In this document: one piece after another, positions 4,247-15,755 of the stretch
How the letters are laid out: each line of letters opens with the position of its first letter
Numbering within the stretch: position 1 is the first letter of the stretch
Source of the DNA: Acidobacteriota bacterium
GTDB taxonomy: Bacteria; Acidobacteriota; Terriglobia; Terriglobales; Acidobacteriaceae
Length of the DNA: 19,549 nucleotides
NCBI GenBank assembly: GCA_003225615.1
Contig: QIAS01000296.1
Location: 1,369-20,917 of the forward strand
Direction: 5' to 3'
Translations under genes and position numbers: made by a program
The notes under the pieces: model-generated
The model's input: the letters and a program-made list of their open reading frames with translations, nothing else
What the model was told of the DNA's origin: nothing
The model's database searches: none

Positions 4247-4322
<76 letters not shown>

Positions 4323-7775: not shown

Positions 7776-7956
7776 ATGGAACAAAAATGTGAAACAGGCA
7801 TTATAGCCTCGTGGATGCTAGGCTGGACTTGGGAGTGTTCTTTGATCCACGCTGGGAAACGGGCATGCGCCGCCGCCCTACTGCTAGTGCTGCAAATCAT
7901 GGCGGGAAACACTGCTGCCGTGGCGGCAGACGAAGTTAGTGCGCCGGCCAAGGGGG
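7776..7956 (+). other. Displaced signal-peptide segment of the M23 peptidase gene
   Basis: This frame, one base off the peptidase frame, encodes a typical Sec signal peptide: KRACAAALLLVLQIMAGNTA followed by AVAADEVSAPAKG. The best start is TTG 7842, with GGGAG (7831-7835) six bases before it. ATG 7815 and ATG 7776 are alternatives with weaker sites. The frame runs into GVPGCRQRC, unlike the family, just at a run of five G (7952-7956). Reading four G instead would join AKG directly to FPAVVNGAPILL of the peptidase. The two are therefore almost certainly parts of one gene. Confidence 0.75.
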
Positions 7957-8730
7957 TTCCCGGCTGTCGTCAACGGTGCTCCGATCTTGCTACGAGTGAA
8001 GCCGCCTATGCGCCTCAAGTCCCTTCAGGGAACCTGGCTGGGGCACGATGTTTCTTTCGATTTCGATTCTTCGACTCGAACTTGGTACGGCTTGGCCGGA
8101 GCCAGCCTGAAGACCCATCCTGGTAGCTATCCGTTAGCGCTGAATGCAGAAAGCATCAGCGGAAAGACACTCTCGTTCGAACGCAAAATTCACGTTGGGC
8201 ATGCGAAATATCCGAGCATCGCGATCAATGTGCCCAAGCGATACACTGAGCCGGATCCCGCCCAAGTGGAAAAGATTAAGCAGGATCAGGCACTGAAAGA
8301 GAGTCTTTTTCCGAAGAGTGGGCCCGAACGGGAATGGTCTGGTCGTTTTCTTCCGCCCGTCGACGCGCCGATTTCTGACCAGTTCGGCACTGAGCGAAAA
8401 CTGAACGGCGTCATTCAAAGTACGCACCAAGGCCTGGATTACCGAGTGCCAGCAGGGACGCCGATAGCGGCGCTCAATCGCGGCACTGTTCTGCTGGCCC
8501 GTCCGCTCTTCTTCGAGGGAAACTGCGTTGTGGTGGACCACGGGCAGGGCCTGCTGAGTCTTTACCTGCACCTCTCGGAGATAACGGTAAAAGAAGGGGA
8601 TCAGGTCACCGGCGGCAAGCAGATTGGTCTAAGCGGCGCAACCGGCCGCGCTACCGGAGCCCACTTGCACGTCGCCGTCCGCTGGCAGGGTGTATATCTG
8701 TCCACCTTGTTCGCACTCCGCTTGCCCTGA
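7939..8730 (+). CDS. M23-family (LytM-type) metallopeptidase, N-terminus frameshifted
   Basis: Zinc endopeptidase of the cell-wall hydrolase group, acting on peptidoglycan cross-links in the periplasm. Numbering from GTG 7939 (263 residues), an all-beta N-terminal region (about 10-100) is followed by the M23 domain (about 135-263). The Zn and catalytic residues are all present: His163 and Asp167 in THQGLDY, His211 in LYLHLSE, and His242/His244 in GAHLHVAV. The C-terminal VYLSTLFALRLP seems to lack two or three residues of the usual VYLDPATLL-type end. No signal peptide exists in this frame. It lies in the frame ending at the G5 run (7952-7956), so a one-base insertion, a sequencing error or slippage separates export signal and enzyme. 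The gene converges on the sigma54 activator across a hairpin. Confidence 0.92.
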   Translation: MRRPRGFPAVVNGAPILLRVKPPMRLKSLQGTWLGHDVSFDFDSSTRTWYGLAGASLKTHPGSYPLALNAESISGKTLSFERKIHVGHAKYPSIAINVPKRYTEPDPAQVEKIKQDQALKESLFPKSGPEREWSGRFLPPVDAPISDQFGTERKLNGVIQSTHQGLDYRVPAGTPIAALNRGTVLLARPLFFEGNCVVVDHGQGLLSLYLHLSEITVKEGDQVTGGKQIGLSGATGRATGAHLHVAVRWQGVYLSTLFALRLP

Positions 8731-8766: not shown

Positions 8767-10710
8767 TCAAGCTTGCAGTCCGAACTTCCCTCGCGTGGTT
8801 GTCTGGCGCAGAGATTCCTTGAGATCGAGGTTGCGAATCAAGCGATGCAGGTAATTGGGATGCACTCCCAGAATCCGCGCAGCTTCTGTGTAATTGCCCT
8901 TGGCATCCTCGAGGGCCGTCAAAATCAGCTGTTTTTTTAGATTCTTAACTGCGGAATGGTATTTGGCGGCCGTGATTCCGGCGGGCGTTTCTGTCTCCAG
9001 CAAGGTTTCTGGAAGGTCTTCGGGCAAAATCGTATCCGACGATCCCAATACCAAGGCGTGCTCGATGGCGTTCTCCAGTTCGCGTACGTTTCCCGGCCAG
9101 TCATAGCTCATGAGAGAAGCCATAGTTTCGCGGGAAATGTTTTTCGCCTTACCCTTGGACTTTGCGCTGTGCTTTTCGACGAAGTAACGCGCCAGCAGTG
9201 GAATATCGGCTTTGCGATCGCGTAGAGCGGGCATGGTAAGAGAAACCACGTTCAAGCGGTAGTAGAGGTCGCGACGAAAAGAGCCATTCTTGACCGCCTC
9301 GTCCAGGTCTTTGTTGCTGGCTGCGATTAAGCGAATGTCCACGGCAATAGGACGGTTTCCGCCCACCCGCTCAAACTCGCGCTCCTGTAATACTCGCAAC
9401 AACTTGACCTGCAAGGCGGGAGGAATCTCACCTACTTCGTCCAGAAAGACTGTGCCGCCATCGGCGACTTCCAACCTGCCCTTCTTTTGGGAGACCGCGC
9501 CGGTGAATGCGCCTTTCTCGTAGCCGAACAGTTCGCTCTCCAGCAAAGTGTCGGGAATAGCCGCGCAGTTGATAGCAACGAAAGGCTTGGCGGCACGTGG
9601 ACTGTTGAGGTGAAGCGCCCGGGCAGCCAGTTCTTTGCCCGTGCCGCTCTCGCCTCCGATCAGGACCGTGGAGTCGGTGGGTGCGGCACGTGTCAGAAAC
9701 TGAAAAACTTCCTTCATCTTTGGACTTTCGCCCAACATGCTGCGCTCGAAATTCAATTCCGTCATCAACCGCTGATTTTCCTGCTCCAGCCATTGCAGCC
9801 GTCGAGCGTTCTCCAAAGCCATGGCGGAAATCCCGGCTATCGCGGTCACGAGCTCGAGGTGATCGTCATCGAAGCGGTGAAGCGGGTCAGTGGAGTCCAG
9901 GTAAATACAGCCAATCACGCGCTCGAAGACCGTCATAGGCACGCACAACAGAGAGCGCACCTGTAAAGCAATTAGACTCTCGACCTTTCCGAAGCCGCTG
10001 CTGCCGGGAATATCACTGCCGAGGATCGCGACGCCCTGTTCCATAACCTGGCGGACGATGGTGCGGCTCACCCGCACCGGTCGGAAATCGTCAGCCAGGC
10101 GATTGCGGGCAAACACCGAGTGAAGGTGTTCCAAGCCAGTTCCATCCAGCAGGATGGCCGCGCGCTCGGCAGGAGCGACTTCGAATGTGAGTTTCAAGAT
10201 CTGCGCCTGTAGTTCGTCGAGCTCGCGGATAGAATGCACTACCCGGCTGATTTTCAGCAGGGCATTCAGGTTACGGGCCAGGCGGGAGGTGGCAGGCAGT
10301 TCGCTGAGGATTTTGTCAGGTTGCAGATAAAGCACGTCCTGCGGGCGAATTCTGGAAGTAGTATGCGTCGGCTGGTCATCGTCGAACTCAACCTTGTAAC
10401 GGTCCTCCTCCTCGGCTTCGTCTCCGACCAGGTACAGAAATACGGAGTCGCCGATGGCCAACTGGTCCCCATGCTTTAGCGTTTGCTCCTTTATCGATGC
10501 CCCATTGACCTGGGTACCATTGCGGCTTTCCAGGTCTCGGATTTTAATTCCGCCGCCTTCATGGGTCAGCACGCAGTGTCTGCGCGAGACGGAGGGATCA
10601 TTAATGTAGAGAAGGTTCAACGGGTCGCGCCCAACCGAGACGTCGTCGGTAGGTAAGACGAAGGTGGATTCTTTCAGGGGCCCGTTGATTGCGACCAATC
10701 TCGGGTTCAC
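8767..10710 (-). CDS. Sigma54-dependent transcriptional activator, FHA-GAF-AAA+-Fis architecture
   Basis: 647 residues from GTG 10710, with AGGGGA six bases upstream as ribosome-binding site. Domains in order: FHA (about 5-95; [20 protein letters not shown]), which binds phosphothreonine; a GAF sensor (about 145-300); and an AAA+ core (about 325-555). The core has Walker A GESGTGKE (353-360), the sigma54-contact loop GAFTGA (400-405), Walker B VFLDEVGE (421-428) and arginine-finger region [11 protein letters not shown] (478-488). A Fis-type helix-turn-helix follows (about 606-627; [18 protein letters not shown]). All ATPase and sigma54-contact motifs are intact. The FHA domain implies input from a Ser/Thr kinase rather than a two-component histidine kinase, since no receiver domain is present. 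Its target genes cannot be told from the window. Two palindromic boxes lie 50-90 bp upstream of its start and may control it. Confidence 0.97.
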
Positions 10711-10760: not shown

Positions 10761-10797
10761 CTATCCGAGTGGATAGCTAACCTATCCGAGTGGATAG
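10761..10797. promoter_or_regulatory. Two identical palindromic operator-like boxes, 21 bp apart
   Basis: CTATCCGAGTGGATAG occurs at 10761-10776 and 10782-10797. Each copy is a perfect 6-bp inverted repeat (CTATCC/GGATAG) around a four-base spacer. The centres are exactly 21 bp apart, two turns of the helix, so two dimers would bind the same face of the DNA. On the minus strand a possible -10 box (TAGAAT, 10763-10758) overlaps the proximal box, suggesting repression of the sigma54 activator. I do not recognise the cognate regulator. Confidence 0.75.
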
Positions 10798-11003
10798 TGG
10801 GACGCGAGGCCCCGCCCATCGAGCCACTCTTATAAGTCGGAACCGCAAAACATGCAAGCCCAAGAAAAATAGCAACTTGTTCGGAATTCGTAACAAGCAT
10901 GCCAAGCATCGGTCATTGGCCACGAACGTGCAAGGCTATTTTGTGACGACTGGCCTGGCAAAAGCGATGGGGGAAGCGCTTTAACAGTCCTGCCGGGCAG
11001 TGC

Positions 11004-11052
11004 TTAATCGGGGACCCGAGGTACCCCCTCATCAGGTCCCCGATTAACTTTT
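11004..11052 (+). terminator. Long perfect hairpin with T-tract
   Basis: TTAATCGGGGACC (11004-11016) pairs perfectly with GGTCCCCGATTAA (11035-11047), a 13-bp stem. The 18-base loop can itself pair GAGG with CCTC. CTTTT follows at 11048-11052, which fits an intrinsic terminator on the plus strand; the minus side has no T-run. It sits directly against the ATG of the next ORF, so it could alternatively act in that gene's leader. Confidence 0.7.
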
Positions 11053-11472
11053 ATGGCAAGCCTTCGCCGCGTGGCCTATTCGGGAGCGTCAGATTCTTTT
11101 CACAAATTCTCTTTTTCTGTCGTGAGCCTCTCAATATTCGAGCCAGCAGAAACGAACTCCGTCACCGCGGTAGTTCACGTCCCATTTAATTTTCTAGTGG
11201 GGGAAATAATGTTGAGCGCAAGCCCTTACTTGATCGGGGCCAGCGAGTTGGCCGACACGATGCTCATACGCCCGGCGAACTCTGACTCACCCAAGGCATT
11301 GGTGCAGGCCATCGGCATTCCGAAGCAGAAGGATGGCTTGTCGATGAAGCTGCTCTTTTATTGCCGAGGAGGGCGGTATTTCCTGGCGCAGGTATTGATG
11401 GTTTCGTCCGTTGACGAATCTACCCAGTTGCCGCCGCAGGCAGGCGGGAGCCTTCCAAATCCTGGCTTGTGA
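11053..11472 (+). CDS. Small acidobacterial-type beta-domain protein, possibly degenerate
   Basis: 139 residues of unknown function. Residues about 40-130 resemble a small domain abundant in Acidobacteriota secreted proteins: VVHVPFNFLVGE at the start, a middle strand DTMLIRPANS, then KLLFYCRGGRYFLAQV and a final QLPP in place of the usual RELPKS. Family members normally carry a clear signal peptide. Here the N-terminus has only a modest hydrophobic patch (FSFSVVSLSIF) and no ribosome-binding site before the ATG, which abuts a terminator-like hairpin. The last 53 bases overlap the 3' end of the helicase gene on the other strand, so the C-terminus beyond about residue 123 may be secondary. A remnant that lost its export signal is possible. 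No search was run. Confidence 0.5.
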   Translation: MASLRRVAYSGASDSFHKFSFSVVSLSIFEPAETNSVTAVVHVPFNFLVGEIMLSASPYLIGASELADTMLIRPANSDSPKALVQAIGIPKQKDGLSMKLLFYCRGGRYFLAQVLMVSSVDESTQLPPQAGGSLPNPGL

Positions 11473-14400
11473 CTGCGACACCATCGCGGAATGTGACCGT
11501 CCTGCCTGAAATCGCCGGAACCCGTTCTCCGGGCACAAGAATGCCAACCAGGTTTAGGGGATCGGCTGCCGACAACGTTATTGTGTCGCCACTCGGAGGG
11601 ACTTTTCGAGCCGCGCGAAGCGACTCAACAGCTACTGGTAGCGCGAACTGTTCACCTAAGAATCCACTGATGAAGCGTCCGCCGCGAACTTCTCCGCGAT
11701 CTTCGAGTCGGCGGAAGCCGATCTGTAGCTCACGCCATTTGGGGAGATTAGTCTCACGGGCCAGAATGTCCCGAAAAACCACGCCGTAACGTTTCAGCAG
11801 CATCCAGCAGGTGGCCTCGACGGCCTTGGATCGTTCCGTTTCTTGACCGGTGTAGAGCAGAGACCAACGCCCAGAACTGTGCCTTGGACGTGCGGTGCGC
11901 CCGCTGCCGTGTCCAGCACGGCGTTTGGGATCAATCAGAGAACGCAAGTTGTCGAATCCATCCGCAGTGACAATTCCTGCCGCTACCAGTTCCCAGAGTG
12001 CAGTCTCGATTTCAGCTTTCAGCTTGCCGGTGCCGCGCACAATGTCGGCGAAGAACGATGCTCCGCGCTGGCGCAGGAACTCGAGCACCTGCTGTGCGCC
12101 ATGACTTAGCCCTCGCGCCTCAGGCTGTTGTGGGTAGGGATGGTGCGGCGTCATCCAGTCGGAATCGTCGCGAATAAAGAATGTGATAGGGGCGACGCTG
12201 GTGGGAATCACGCGTCGCTTGCCGGCGGCCGAATCCTCCAGCGTGGCGGGATGCGGCGAGAGACGTCCCCAACCCACTGCCCCAGTCAGGCAAAGCTGGT
12301 CGAGGACCTTCGGATCGTAATCCGCTATGCGCCGGCCCAGTGCCTGGCGTTCCCATGCGTTCGCCGGAATTTCAAAACCCTGGAGCTGCCGGAGAACTTC
12401 GAGGGTGCCACGTTCCCCCAGGACCTGCGTTCCTGGGGCGAGGTGCTGCCAACGTAAAAGCCATGCCATGAACTGCGCCGAAGTGACCGGCTCAATCTGC
12501 TTGCGCAATGTTGCCACGGTAAGCCGGTGAATGCGCGCCAGCAGCCGACGGTCACACCATTCCACCTCAGTGACTTGCGGCACTCCTGTGGCTTCTCTCG
12601 AAATGGCGCCGGTAAAGTTGCCGCGCAGGATTGCCCCACTCGCCTCCAGCCGCAGCAAAGCTTTATCAATTTCAGAGGACGGCAAACCAAGCAAATGTCC
12701 GAGCTGTTCGGCAGTGGTTGGTCCCAAATGCATCATCCATCCGGTGATCATGGCGAGCAGAGCATCGTCGCGAGAAGGGACGGCGGTGTCGAATTGCGGC
12801 AAAGGCCGATCAAACTCTGCATTGGGAAATATCTGGAGGAAGCTGCGCGCCCGCTCTGCAGCCACCCAGTAGCGTCGCGCTCCGGCGTGCGGTTCATCGT
12901 CGGCCACAGTTGCTACTGCAGCGCGACCATCGGCCGCAAGCCGCACGAAGAAATCATTCCATTCAGGGGTGGTCTGCGACGACGTAGCGACCTCGCCAAC
13001 ATTTTGCTGTAGAAGGAGAGAAGTGTCGGTTGCATCTGCCACAGAGGCAAGGTTGCTCCCGTCTGTCTGGCCTGGCAAAGCCCGGTACTCTTCCGGCAAC
13101 GCAATAAACGTGTGCAGCACATCGTGCAATTCGTCTGCATCCCGCACATCCGGCCAAGCCTCTTCCCGAACTTGCGCAATCGCCGTCGGGTCGAGTTTGC
13201 CAACTTCTTCGAGGACCGACTCCGGCAGCATCCGCCGCATCTCCACGGCGCGCGCCCGCCGTTCCTCTAGCGGCGCATCGTCCAGATAGGCGTATGGATT
13301 TGCATTTAGAATCTCGTGGGAAAACTGGGACGGCACAGGCGTGTCCACGGCCAGGCAGCGAATGCGTCCGTCGGCAATCCGCAGCAGCACATCTTTCAGT
13401 CCATCCAGATCCATCGCTTCGGTGAGCACGTCTTTCATGACCTCGCTCACCAGCGGATGGTCAGGAATCTGAATGTCTCCGCTAATGTTTTCCTGGCAGG
13501 CCGCCACATCGGGGAACACGGAGGCCAGCAAATCATCAGAGCGCATGCGCTGAATTTGGGGAGGGACTTTGCCTCCGCCCTGGAAGCGCAGCAGTGCCAA
13601 GGCACGCATTGCGTCCCAGCGCCAGCGAGTTCCGAAGATCGGAGAGGCCAGTGCGGCCTGCTCCAGAATCGGTTGCACCGTTTCAGCTTGCAGGAAATGG
13701 AAAACGTCGCCTAACGGGAAGCTGTGTTGCTCCGCCAGCGCGATGTTGAGCCCGTTGTCGGTCGCCGCCGCTTGCAATTCAAAATTGAAGCTGCGGCAAA
13801 AGCGCTTGCGCAGCGCGAGTCCCCAGGCTTTGTTGATTCGGCCGCCGAATGGCGCGTGAATGACGAGTTGCATTCCGCCGCCTTCATCGAAGAAGCGTTC
13901 CGCGATGATCGTCTTCTGTGTAGGAACATCGCCCAACACGGCGCGGCCTTGCAGAATGTATTCGATGGCCTGCTCTGCCCCGGAATCATCCAGCCCGCAC
14001 TCCTGTTTTAGCCAGGAAACAGTGTCGGCTACCAGCGGCTGAGTCGGAGAGAATCCCACGGGCGAAATATTGGGCAACATATCGCTGATTGCCTTGCGCA
14101 GATCAGCAACGTAAGTAGAAAGTTCCGCAGTGCGAGCAGGAGCTTCACCTAACCAGAAGGGAACTGTCGGAGGAGCGCCATGGGCATCTTCGACGAGAAC
14201 GCGTCCGGACCTACCCTCGATGCGGCGAATACGCCAGGAGGAATTTCCCAGCAGAATGATGTCATCGCGATTGCTCTCAACCGCGAAGTCCTCATCGAGC
14301 GTGCCCACTACTGTGCCCTCCGGCTCAGCCACCACGGTATAAAGCGCTGTATCGGGAATCGCACCACCGCTGGTGATCGCCGCCAGCCGGGCTCCGCGGC

Positions 14401-15755
14401 GGGCGCGCAATTTTCCGTTCACGCGGTCGCGATGCAGGTATGCGCCGTACCGACCTCGGCGGGCGGCAATGCCTTCCGAAAGCATTTCCAAAATTGCATT
14501 GAAAGTTTCGCGCGGCAGATTGCGATAGGGGTACGCCTGGCGCAGCAGTGCGAAGAGCTCGAGAACATCCAGCGGCGATTCCGGAATCATCAGGCGATCC
14601 AGATCGCCATGCCGGATGGCCTGGACCAGCGCGGCACATTCGAGCAACTCATCGCGCGTGGTGGCGAATAATTTTCCTTTGGGAACAGCGCCACGCCAGT
14701 GGCCGGAGCGTCCCACACGCTGCAGAGCTACTGCAATGGATCTCGTGGAGCTGATGTGGCAAACCAGCTCGACCGTGCCGATGTCAATTCCAAGTTCCAG
14801 AGAGGCGGTCGCCACCAGCGCCTGGACTTCTCCATTCTTCAGCTTGCGCTCAGCCGCGAGACGCAGTTTGCGTGACAAACTGCCATGATGCGCCGCAACC
14901 GCCTCCTCGCCCAGTCGCTCGGCCAGATGGTGCGCCACCCGCTCGGCCAGCCGTCGCGTGTTGACGAACACCAAGGTTGACCGGTGCTGCCGCACGAGTT
15001 CCGAGATGCGGTCGTAAATCTCGTCCCACATCTCGTTGGTCGCGATTGGTCCTAATGGGCTGCCCGGCACCTCGACCGCGAGATCAAGTTGCCGTTTGTG
15101 GCCAATGTTCACGATGACGGGATCGGGCCGCCCGTTCCCGGTGAGGAAGTGAGCGACGACTTCAATCGGCTTCTGCGTCGCTGAAAGCCCGATGCGCACC
15201 GGCGGCCGGTTGGCGAGCGCACTCAGCCGCTCAAGCGAGAGCGCCAGATGAGCGCCGCGCTTGTCGTCGGCGACGGCGTGGATTTCGTCCACGATCACCG
15301 TCTCCACGTCCCGCAAAATCGCTCGGCTCCGTTCTGCGGTCAGCAGGATGTACAGCGACTCCGGCGTGGTGACCAGAATATGTGGGGGACGCTTCAGCAT
15401 GGCCCGGCGCTCGTGCATGAGCGTGTCGCCGGTGCGGACCGCGGTGCGAATCTGGGGCATGAGCAAGCCACGCTCGCCCGCCATTTGTAGAATTTCCCCG
15501 AGAGGGATTTCGAGGTTTTTCTGAATGTCGTTGCCCAGTGCCTTGAGGGGCGAAATGTACAGAACTTCCGTGCGGTCTTGCAGCTCGCCAGCCAGAGCCT
15601 TGCGGACCGGGCGGTCAATGCACGCGAGAAACGCAGCCAGAGTTTTTCCGGAGCCAGTAGGGGCGGAAATCAGGGTAGTCCGGCCGGACAGAATATGAGG
15701 CCACCTGTACGAGTGGGTGCGCCCATGCCAGGGAATTGGGGACCAGGAAGGACAT
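11420..15755 (-). CDS. lhr: Lhr-family superfamily-2 DNA/RNA helicase with a disrupted 5' end
   Basis: Large bacterial Lhr-type helicase, ATP-dependent, 3'-5', implicated in DNA repair in other bacteria. The frame is open from 15760 to the stop at 11420 (about 1446 codons). Seen in order: Walker A SAPTGSGKTLAAF (about 15640-15670), SPLKALGNDIQKNL, TTPESLYILLT, motif II DEIH (about 15289), GLSATQ, FVNTRRLAERVAHHL, HHGSLSR, ATASLELGIDIG and QRVGRSG. Then come the DEAD-associated and winged-helix C-terminal regions, ending DPLNLVGILVPGERVP. The first ATG in this frame (15484) lies after Walker A, so a protein starting there could not hydrolyse ATP. The likely true start, ATG 15755, reads SLAWAHPLVQ in another frame. 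It meets the main frame at about 15701-15707, and the expected PTxxQ motif between them is missing. The gene is therefore either inactivated or misassembled at this point. Confidence 0.9.

Follow-up and report, generated by a model that had tools for sequence, protein, structure and literature searches.

The locus and its paired boxes

The window (the whole stretch of DNA analysed, 19,549 nucleotides from an Acidobacteriota bacterium) carries a sigma54 activator (bEBP) gene, two identical palindromic boxes upstream of it, and a divergent unit with a putative promoter and a putative sRNA. The features are listed by position.

7939..8730, plus strand: M23 peptidase gene, a synteny marker
8767..10710, minus strand: sigma54 activator with FHA, GAF, AAA+ and Fis-type HTH parts (from Pfam, GAFTGA and recognition helix), the proposed binder of the boxes
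10761..10776, no strand: box 1, CTATCCGAGTGGATAG, activator-proximal half of the proposed enhancer
10782..10797, no strand: box 2, an identical copy of CTATCCGAGTGGATAG, promoter-proximal half of the proposed enhancer
10916..10933, plus strand: putative sigma54 -24/-12 promoter, TTGGCCACGAACGTGCAA, with GG at 10918-10919 and GC at 10930-10931
10943..11054, plus strand: putative sRNA of about 110 nt (alignment A2, RNAalifold and covariance model), with the 5' end inferred from the promoter and the 3' end from the T-run
10961..10982, plus strand: predicted hairpin AAAGCG-(ATGGGGGAAG)-CGCTTT with a G-rich loop, within an outer stem at 10954-10959/10992-10997
11004..11054, plus strand: predicted intrinsic terminator with its stem at 11004-11016/11035-11047, a loop containing CCCCCTCATC (11024-11033), and then CTTTTAT
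11053..11472, plus strand: ORF resembling small secreted proteins divergent to other bEBPs
11420..15484, minus strand: Lhr-type helicase gene, the synteny marker on the other side

The activator is 647 aa long and has FHA, GAF, Sigma54_activat and HTH_8 domains by Pfam, with a GAFTGA motif at residue 400, in agreement with the original prediction of a sigma54 activator beside the boxes. The cognate bEBP of an enhancer (UAS) carries an AAA+ sigma54-interaction domain, GAFTGA and an HTH, and all three are found here. Its closest named relatives are in Acidobacteria/Terriglobia MAGs. The genome also encodes rpoN (G000:C487, E 1.7e-59), which a UAS requires. A second FHA-GAF-type bEBP is present in the same genome (L053/L134, G000:C284), with a pair of tandem GTATC-type boxes that precede the aligned part by about 600 bp.

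Both boxes are 16-bp dyads with a centre-to-centre spacing of 21 bp, and the tandem perfect palindromes first reported are exact at these positions. UAS sites are inverted repeats, usually more than one, and the box pair has this form. An activator homologue search gave 17 loci, and the upstream sequence was inspected for 13 (L005-L017). The box pair is present in 12 of these 13 (L005-L016, 61-66% activator identity), and it was not seen upstream of the activator in L017 (47% identity). Alignment A1 combines the window with 11 of the 12 box loci; L011 was omitted because its contig ends shortly upstream. Both boxes are kept in all 12 rows. The four arms have a mean column identity of 0.81-0.97, against 0.52 between the boxes and 0.50 in the linker that leads to the promoter. 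The promoter GG and GC reach 1.00, and the values for the sRNA and the activator side are 0.83 and 0.72. Diverged boxes in a conserved flank would speak against a regulatory role; the opposite was found, with boxes kept and a linker about 50% identical. Selection on the identical four-base spacers, also proposed originally, was rejected because the spacers differ among relatives.

The putative RNA and its neighbours

Sigma54-dependent sRNAs of the Qrr/GlmY kind combine a conserved structure and an intrinsic terminator. The outer stem, the hairpin with the G-rich loop, and the terminator are predicted in all 15 aligned RNAs. Double compensatory changes occur at 12 of the 29 predicted pairs, and the terminator stem has compensatory changes. 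An Rfam scan of the window at gathering scores returned nothing but a tRNA, and at E ≤ 5 it added just sub-threshold miRNA models. The RNA is therefore not a member of a described Rfam family, and a known family was rejected as its identity. The window has an ordinary tRNA gene at 4247-4318 on the plus strand.

The covariance model, with stricter filters, gave 13 matches to the RNA, spread over 12 of the 399 genomes. The RNA has the bEBP and boxes alongside in eight genomes (G000, G006, G010, G284, G335, G349, G397, and G412). In G397, two tandem sRNA copies stand behind one box pair and one sigma54 element matching at 13/14 positions (L105/L107, G397:C267:25605-25851). Four genomes have the RNA and no bEBP genome-wide at E ≤ 1e-100: G290 (65 bits), G027 (56), G028 (50), and G415 (34.5, a weak match). 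The 450 bp preceding the RNA contain no box-like 16-mer (≤3 mismatches) in any of these four. One of the four loci has a weak GG-N10-GC (9/14) near the RNA (L103), and the other three have none at ≥8/14 within 200 bp. M23 and Lhr homologues flank the RNA in all four, as in the window, so the locus is the same, with just the bEBP and boxes missing. Because the RNA is present without the bEBP and boxes, it either predates sigma54 control or has lost it.

We consider it unlikely that the conserved RNA is a leader or attenuator for a downstream gene instead of a free sRNA. A small-protein ORF does follow the terminator in the window and in G397, but the small protein is found at just 2 of the 19 sRNA loci tested (several with little flanking sequence), the downstream genes vary by locus, and a strong terminator ends the RNA. 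For a leader of one conserved downstream gene, these differing genes and the 2/19 count led to rejection. The window ORF at 11053-11472 is 34% identical over 98 aa to a protein at L025 (pair E 5e-12), has no evident signal peptide, and is perhaps a decayed former target. Pfam has no family for the window ORF at 11209-11472.

Promoter distance and the proposed binding protein

Sigma54-dependent promoters of the GG-N10-GC type are expected tens to about 200 bp downstream of a UAS. In the window, the putative promoter is 139 bp from the array centre; it has 9 of 14 matches to the consensus and is imperfect. The same 14-position consensus was used for all promoter scoring. Across the class, a strict tandem pattern matched 14 of 399 genomes at 16 distinct sites, the remaining rows being the same sites read in reverse. 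Fifteen of these 16 sites have a GG-N10-GC at ≥8/14 whose distance to the array centre is 134-146 bp, compared with an expectation of 0.029 per site in real flanking DNA (the loci are related). At ≥9/14 the count is 12 of 16 vs. 0.006 expected. At the remaining site (L075), the GG-N10-GC is at 83 bp. Because the loci are related, these survey statistics are inflated. Of 30 bEBP upstream regions with tandem dyads, 20 have their best divergent-strand element at 135-143 bp; in seven it is at another distance, and three have none (one of these with just 44 bp of sequence). The highest promoter scores (13/14) are at L108 (G397) and L124.

The positions of the boxes bear on which gene they serve. 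Genes for bEBPs are often autoregulated, and the window boxes are 51-87 bp upstream of the activator start codon. A site bound by the bEBP for its own gene only, with the divergent unit unconnected, would fit both points. Against it, four of the 16 tandem sites (L069-L072) precede a small secreted-protein gene, with the bEBP elsewhere in the genome and none in the fetched locus, and at L084 the boxes are found past the 3' end of the bEBP gene, again ahead of a small secreted-protein gene. The promoter distance is also fixed on the target side. These five loci have boxes ahead of secreted-protein genes and not bEBP starts, so the boxes probably serve target promoters, and we regard purely autoregulatory boxes as improbable. 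It is possible that the same boxes also autoregulate the bEBP gene. The original prediction placed a possible -10 element (TAGAAT, minus strand) over the proximal box. A conserved activator -10 at this position was rejected because the hexamer differs in the other 11 aligned loci (GGATATTG, GGATATCA, GGATATCG, or GGATACCG).

Several small proteins are found at other loci of this kind. Those at L069-L072 and L084 belong to a family of about 147 aa (GSFTLPxEVRWQ...LPAGxYxF), and Pfam has no family for the three that were scanned. Arrays of 16-aa ORFs with good ribosome sites are divergent from NHLF-class bEBPs and have CTAAC-type boxes and a sigma54-like element upstream of them: four tandem copies at L133 (G005:C144), MKIKT(N/S)TKAGSAVWGG, and two at L030 (G003:C38), MTVKTNTKAGSAVWGG. 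The KAGSAVWGG pattern matched 0 of 299 class genomes in a draw without the holders G003 and G005. At L123 (G284:C5) and L124 (G349:C4), the NHLF-class bEBPs have divergent ORFs of 55-56 aa behind sigma54-like elements; these ORFs have a signal-like start and the motif ...ADGGP(I/L)ILCPP....

Co-occurrence of boxes and regulator in related genomes was surveyed, as the original prediction had suggested. The bEBP (E ≤ 1e-140) is carried by 67 of 399 genomes, including all 14 with the strict pattern, and a homologue adjoins nine of the 16 tandem sites within the fetched locus. A reversed-pattern control matched one of the 399 genomes (G202). Tandem dyads were also sought, without regard to box sequence, in the 300 bp upstream of bEBP genes (72 regions), with a cut-off score of 21; in 720 shuffles, the 99th percentile was 20 and the maximum 21. 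The cut-off was reached in 30 of the 72 regions. Three of 17 further loci, overlooked by the helix pattern or without an HTH, reached it too (L116, L167, and L128), for a total of 33 of 89. No tandem dyad at the cut-off was found in the other 56 scored upstream regions, several NYLH homologues included.

Recognition helix and box sequence vary together. At scores ≥21, half-sites are CTATC in all 25 NYLH loci and one NNLH locus, CTAACC in two NSLL loci, CTAACA in two NHLF loci, and GTATCC or GTAGCT in two HPKYLH loci; L128, with an unrelated helix, has AGCAAC. Consistent loci at score 20 are four more HPKYLH (GTATCC or GTAGCC) and L122 (NSLL, CTAACC). One score-20 locus is an exception (L152), with an NYLH helix yet mixed CTAAC/GATAG boxes and a CTAACT half-site, and three others (L133, L165, and L156) fit no helix-box scheme. 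A tree that omits the HTH places the HPK, NSLL, and NHLF helices in one clade each, each with its own box change; five box labels (L025, L026, L036, L123, and L133) were read by eye and the tree has no support values. Judged from this tree, the helix-box changes count as three events, not 33. A match between site and HTH specificity is thus indicated by covariation only, seen in three clades, with L152 as the single exception. Evidence for the variant box classes comes from loci next to a bEBP, because a strict CTAAC tandem search matched only one of 399 genomes (G344). That match is an isolated perfect tandem CTAAC-N6-GTTAG pair (L190, G344:C12:61319-61353), which lacks both a bEBP in its locus and a sigma54 element at the expected distance.

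The regulator family was originally left unassigned, and comparative evidence (presence and absence, helix-box covariation, and fixed promoter distance) now points to the adjacent sigma54 activator. The proposed binding by the bEBP rests on comparative evidence, which leaves some room for another, unlinked regulator on the boxes, but co-occurrence in 14 of 14 genomes and covariation in three clades make this very improbable.

The boxes are also rare in their own genome. The window has three matches to the box at ≤2 mismatches (two perfect and one with two mismatches) vs. a shuffle mean of 0.42. The two perfect copies are the only ones in the assembly (G000, 4.03 Mb, 577 contigs, about 83% complete), which has two isolated one-mismatch copies elsewhere. 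A dispersed repeat or chance duplication without a regulatory role, to which the identity of the copies and their spacers might point, has negligible probability and was rejected given the shuffle excess, the lack of another perfect copy in the assembly, and the conservation of arms and position across loci and genera.

Proposed circuit and its significance

The box pair most likely serves the adjacent FHA-GAF bEBP as its enhancer (UAS) and acts on a sigma54 promoter from which an uncatalogued sRNA of soil Acidobacteria, about 110 nt long, would be made; we put the probability of this reading at roughly 0.85. Comparative sequence evidence supports the identity of the proposed binder, the presence and position of the putative promoter, and the predicted RNA structure, while we infer binding, activation and transcription, the signal, and the sRNA's mode of action and targets. 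The element was rightly seen as conserved, protein-site-like, and previously unassigned, but it is more likely an enhancer for the divergent unit than an operator at an activator -10.

In the proposed mechanism, the Fis-type HTH would place bEBP dimers on the two dyads. A signal would reach the FHA/GAF part, where FHA suggests a phosphoprotein partner and GAF a small ligand. The AAA+ ring would then contact sigma54 holoenzyme at 10916-10933 by DNA looping over about 139 bp, and promoter opening would yield the terminated sRNA. Its exposed G-rich and C-rich loops may pair with targets, and candidate target sites would be complementary to CCCCCUCAUC and near start codons.

Two known systems come closest in kind. 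In Vibrio fischeri, LuxO (and SypG) drives qrr1 from two dyad UAS sites (TTGCAWWWTGCAA) and a sigma54 promoter, and the sites overlap for two bEBPs (PMC10162802). The window likewise has a bEBP, two dyad sites, and a predicted sigma54 promoter ahead of a putative sRNA. As a response regulator, LuxO has a REC domain, whereas the window bEBP has FHA and GAF; the UAS sequences differ, and the window RNA has no Rfam match to Qrr or any other family. In E. coli, QseF/GlrR controls the sigma54 promoter of the glmY sRNA, which has an overlapping sigma70 promoter too, and glmZ is constitutive (PMC7073468). The predicted arrangement here is similar in having an sRNA with a sigma54 promoter under one bEBP, and the glmY/glmZ contrast is comparable to the RNA with and without the bEBP. 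QseF is a two-component response regulator, unlike the window bEBP, and the RNAs are unrelated by the Rfam scan.

FHA-domain sigma54 activators exist in myxobacteria. They resemble the window bEBP in having an FHA sensing domain on a sigma54 activator, a likeness drawn by description only, and we know of no sRNA target for them. The parts are of known kind and the circuit looks undescribed: no description was found in titles and abstract starts of open-access literature on Acidobacteria with sigma54/bEBP or sRNA, among the matches listed.

A broader and more tentative reading, which we think somewhat less probable than its negation, is a signalling regulon found class-wide in Acidobacteria. 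One FHA-GAF bEBP family would have had its operator re-specified at least three times, with the enhancer kept about 13 helical turns from sigma54 promoters. The family would control small secreted proteins and arrays of 16-aa micropeptides. In one lineage its targets would also include an sRNA of earlier origin, located between the M23 and Lhr genes and captured when the bEBP and boxes came alongside.

An unassigned motif of a little-studied phylum thus gains a proposed regulator, promoter, and target, and an RNA family without an Rfam match is offered. The helix-box pairs can be used as they stand to study recognition by Fis-type HTHs. Loci that have the RNA together with the bEBP and boxes, set beside those that have it without them, offer a natural comparison of how sigma54 control over an sRNA may be gained (or lost). 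If the regulon reading is true, it would link phosphoprotein signalling through FHA to RNA-based regulation.
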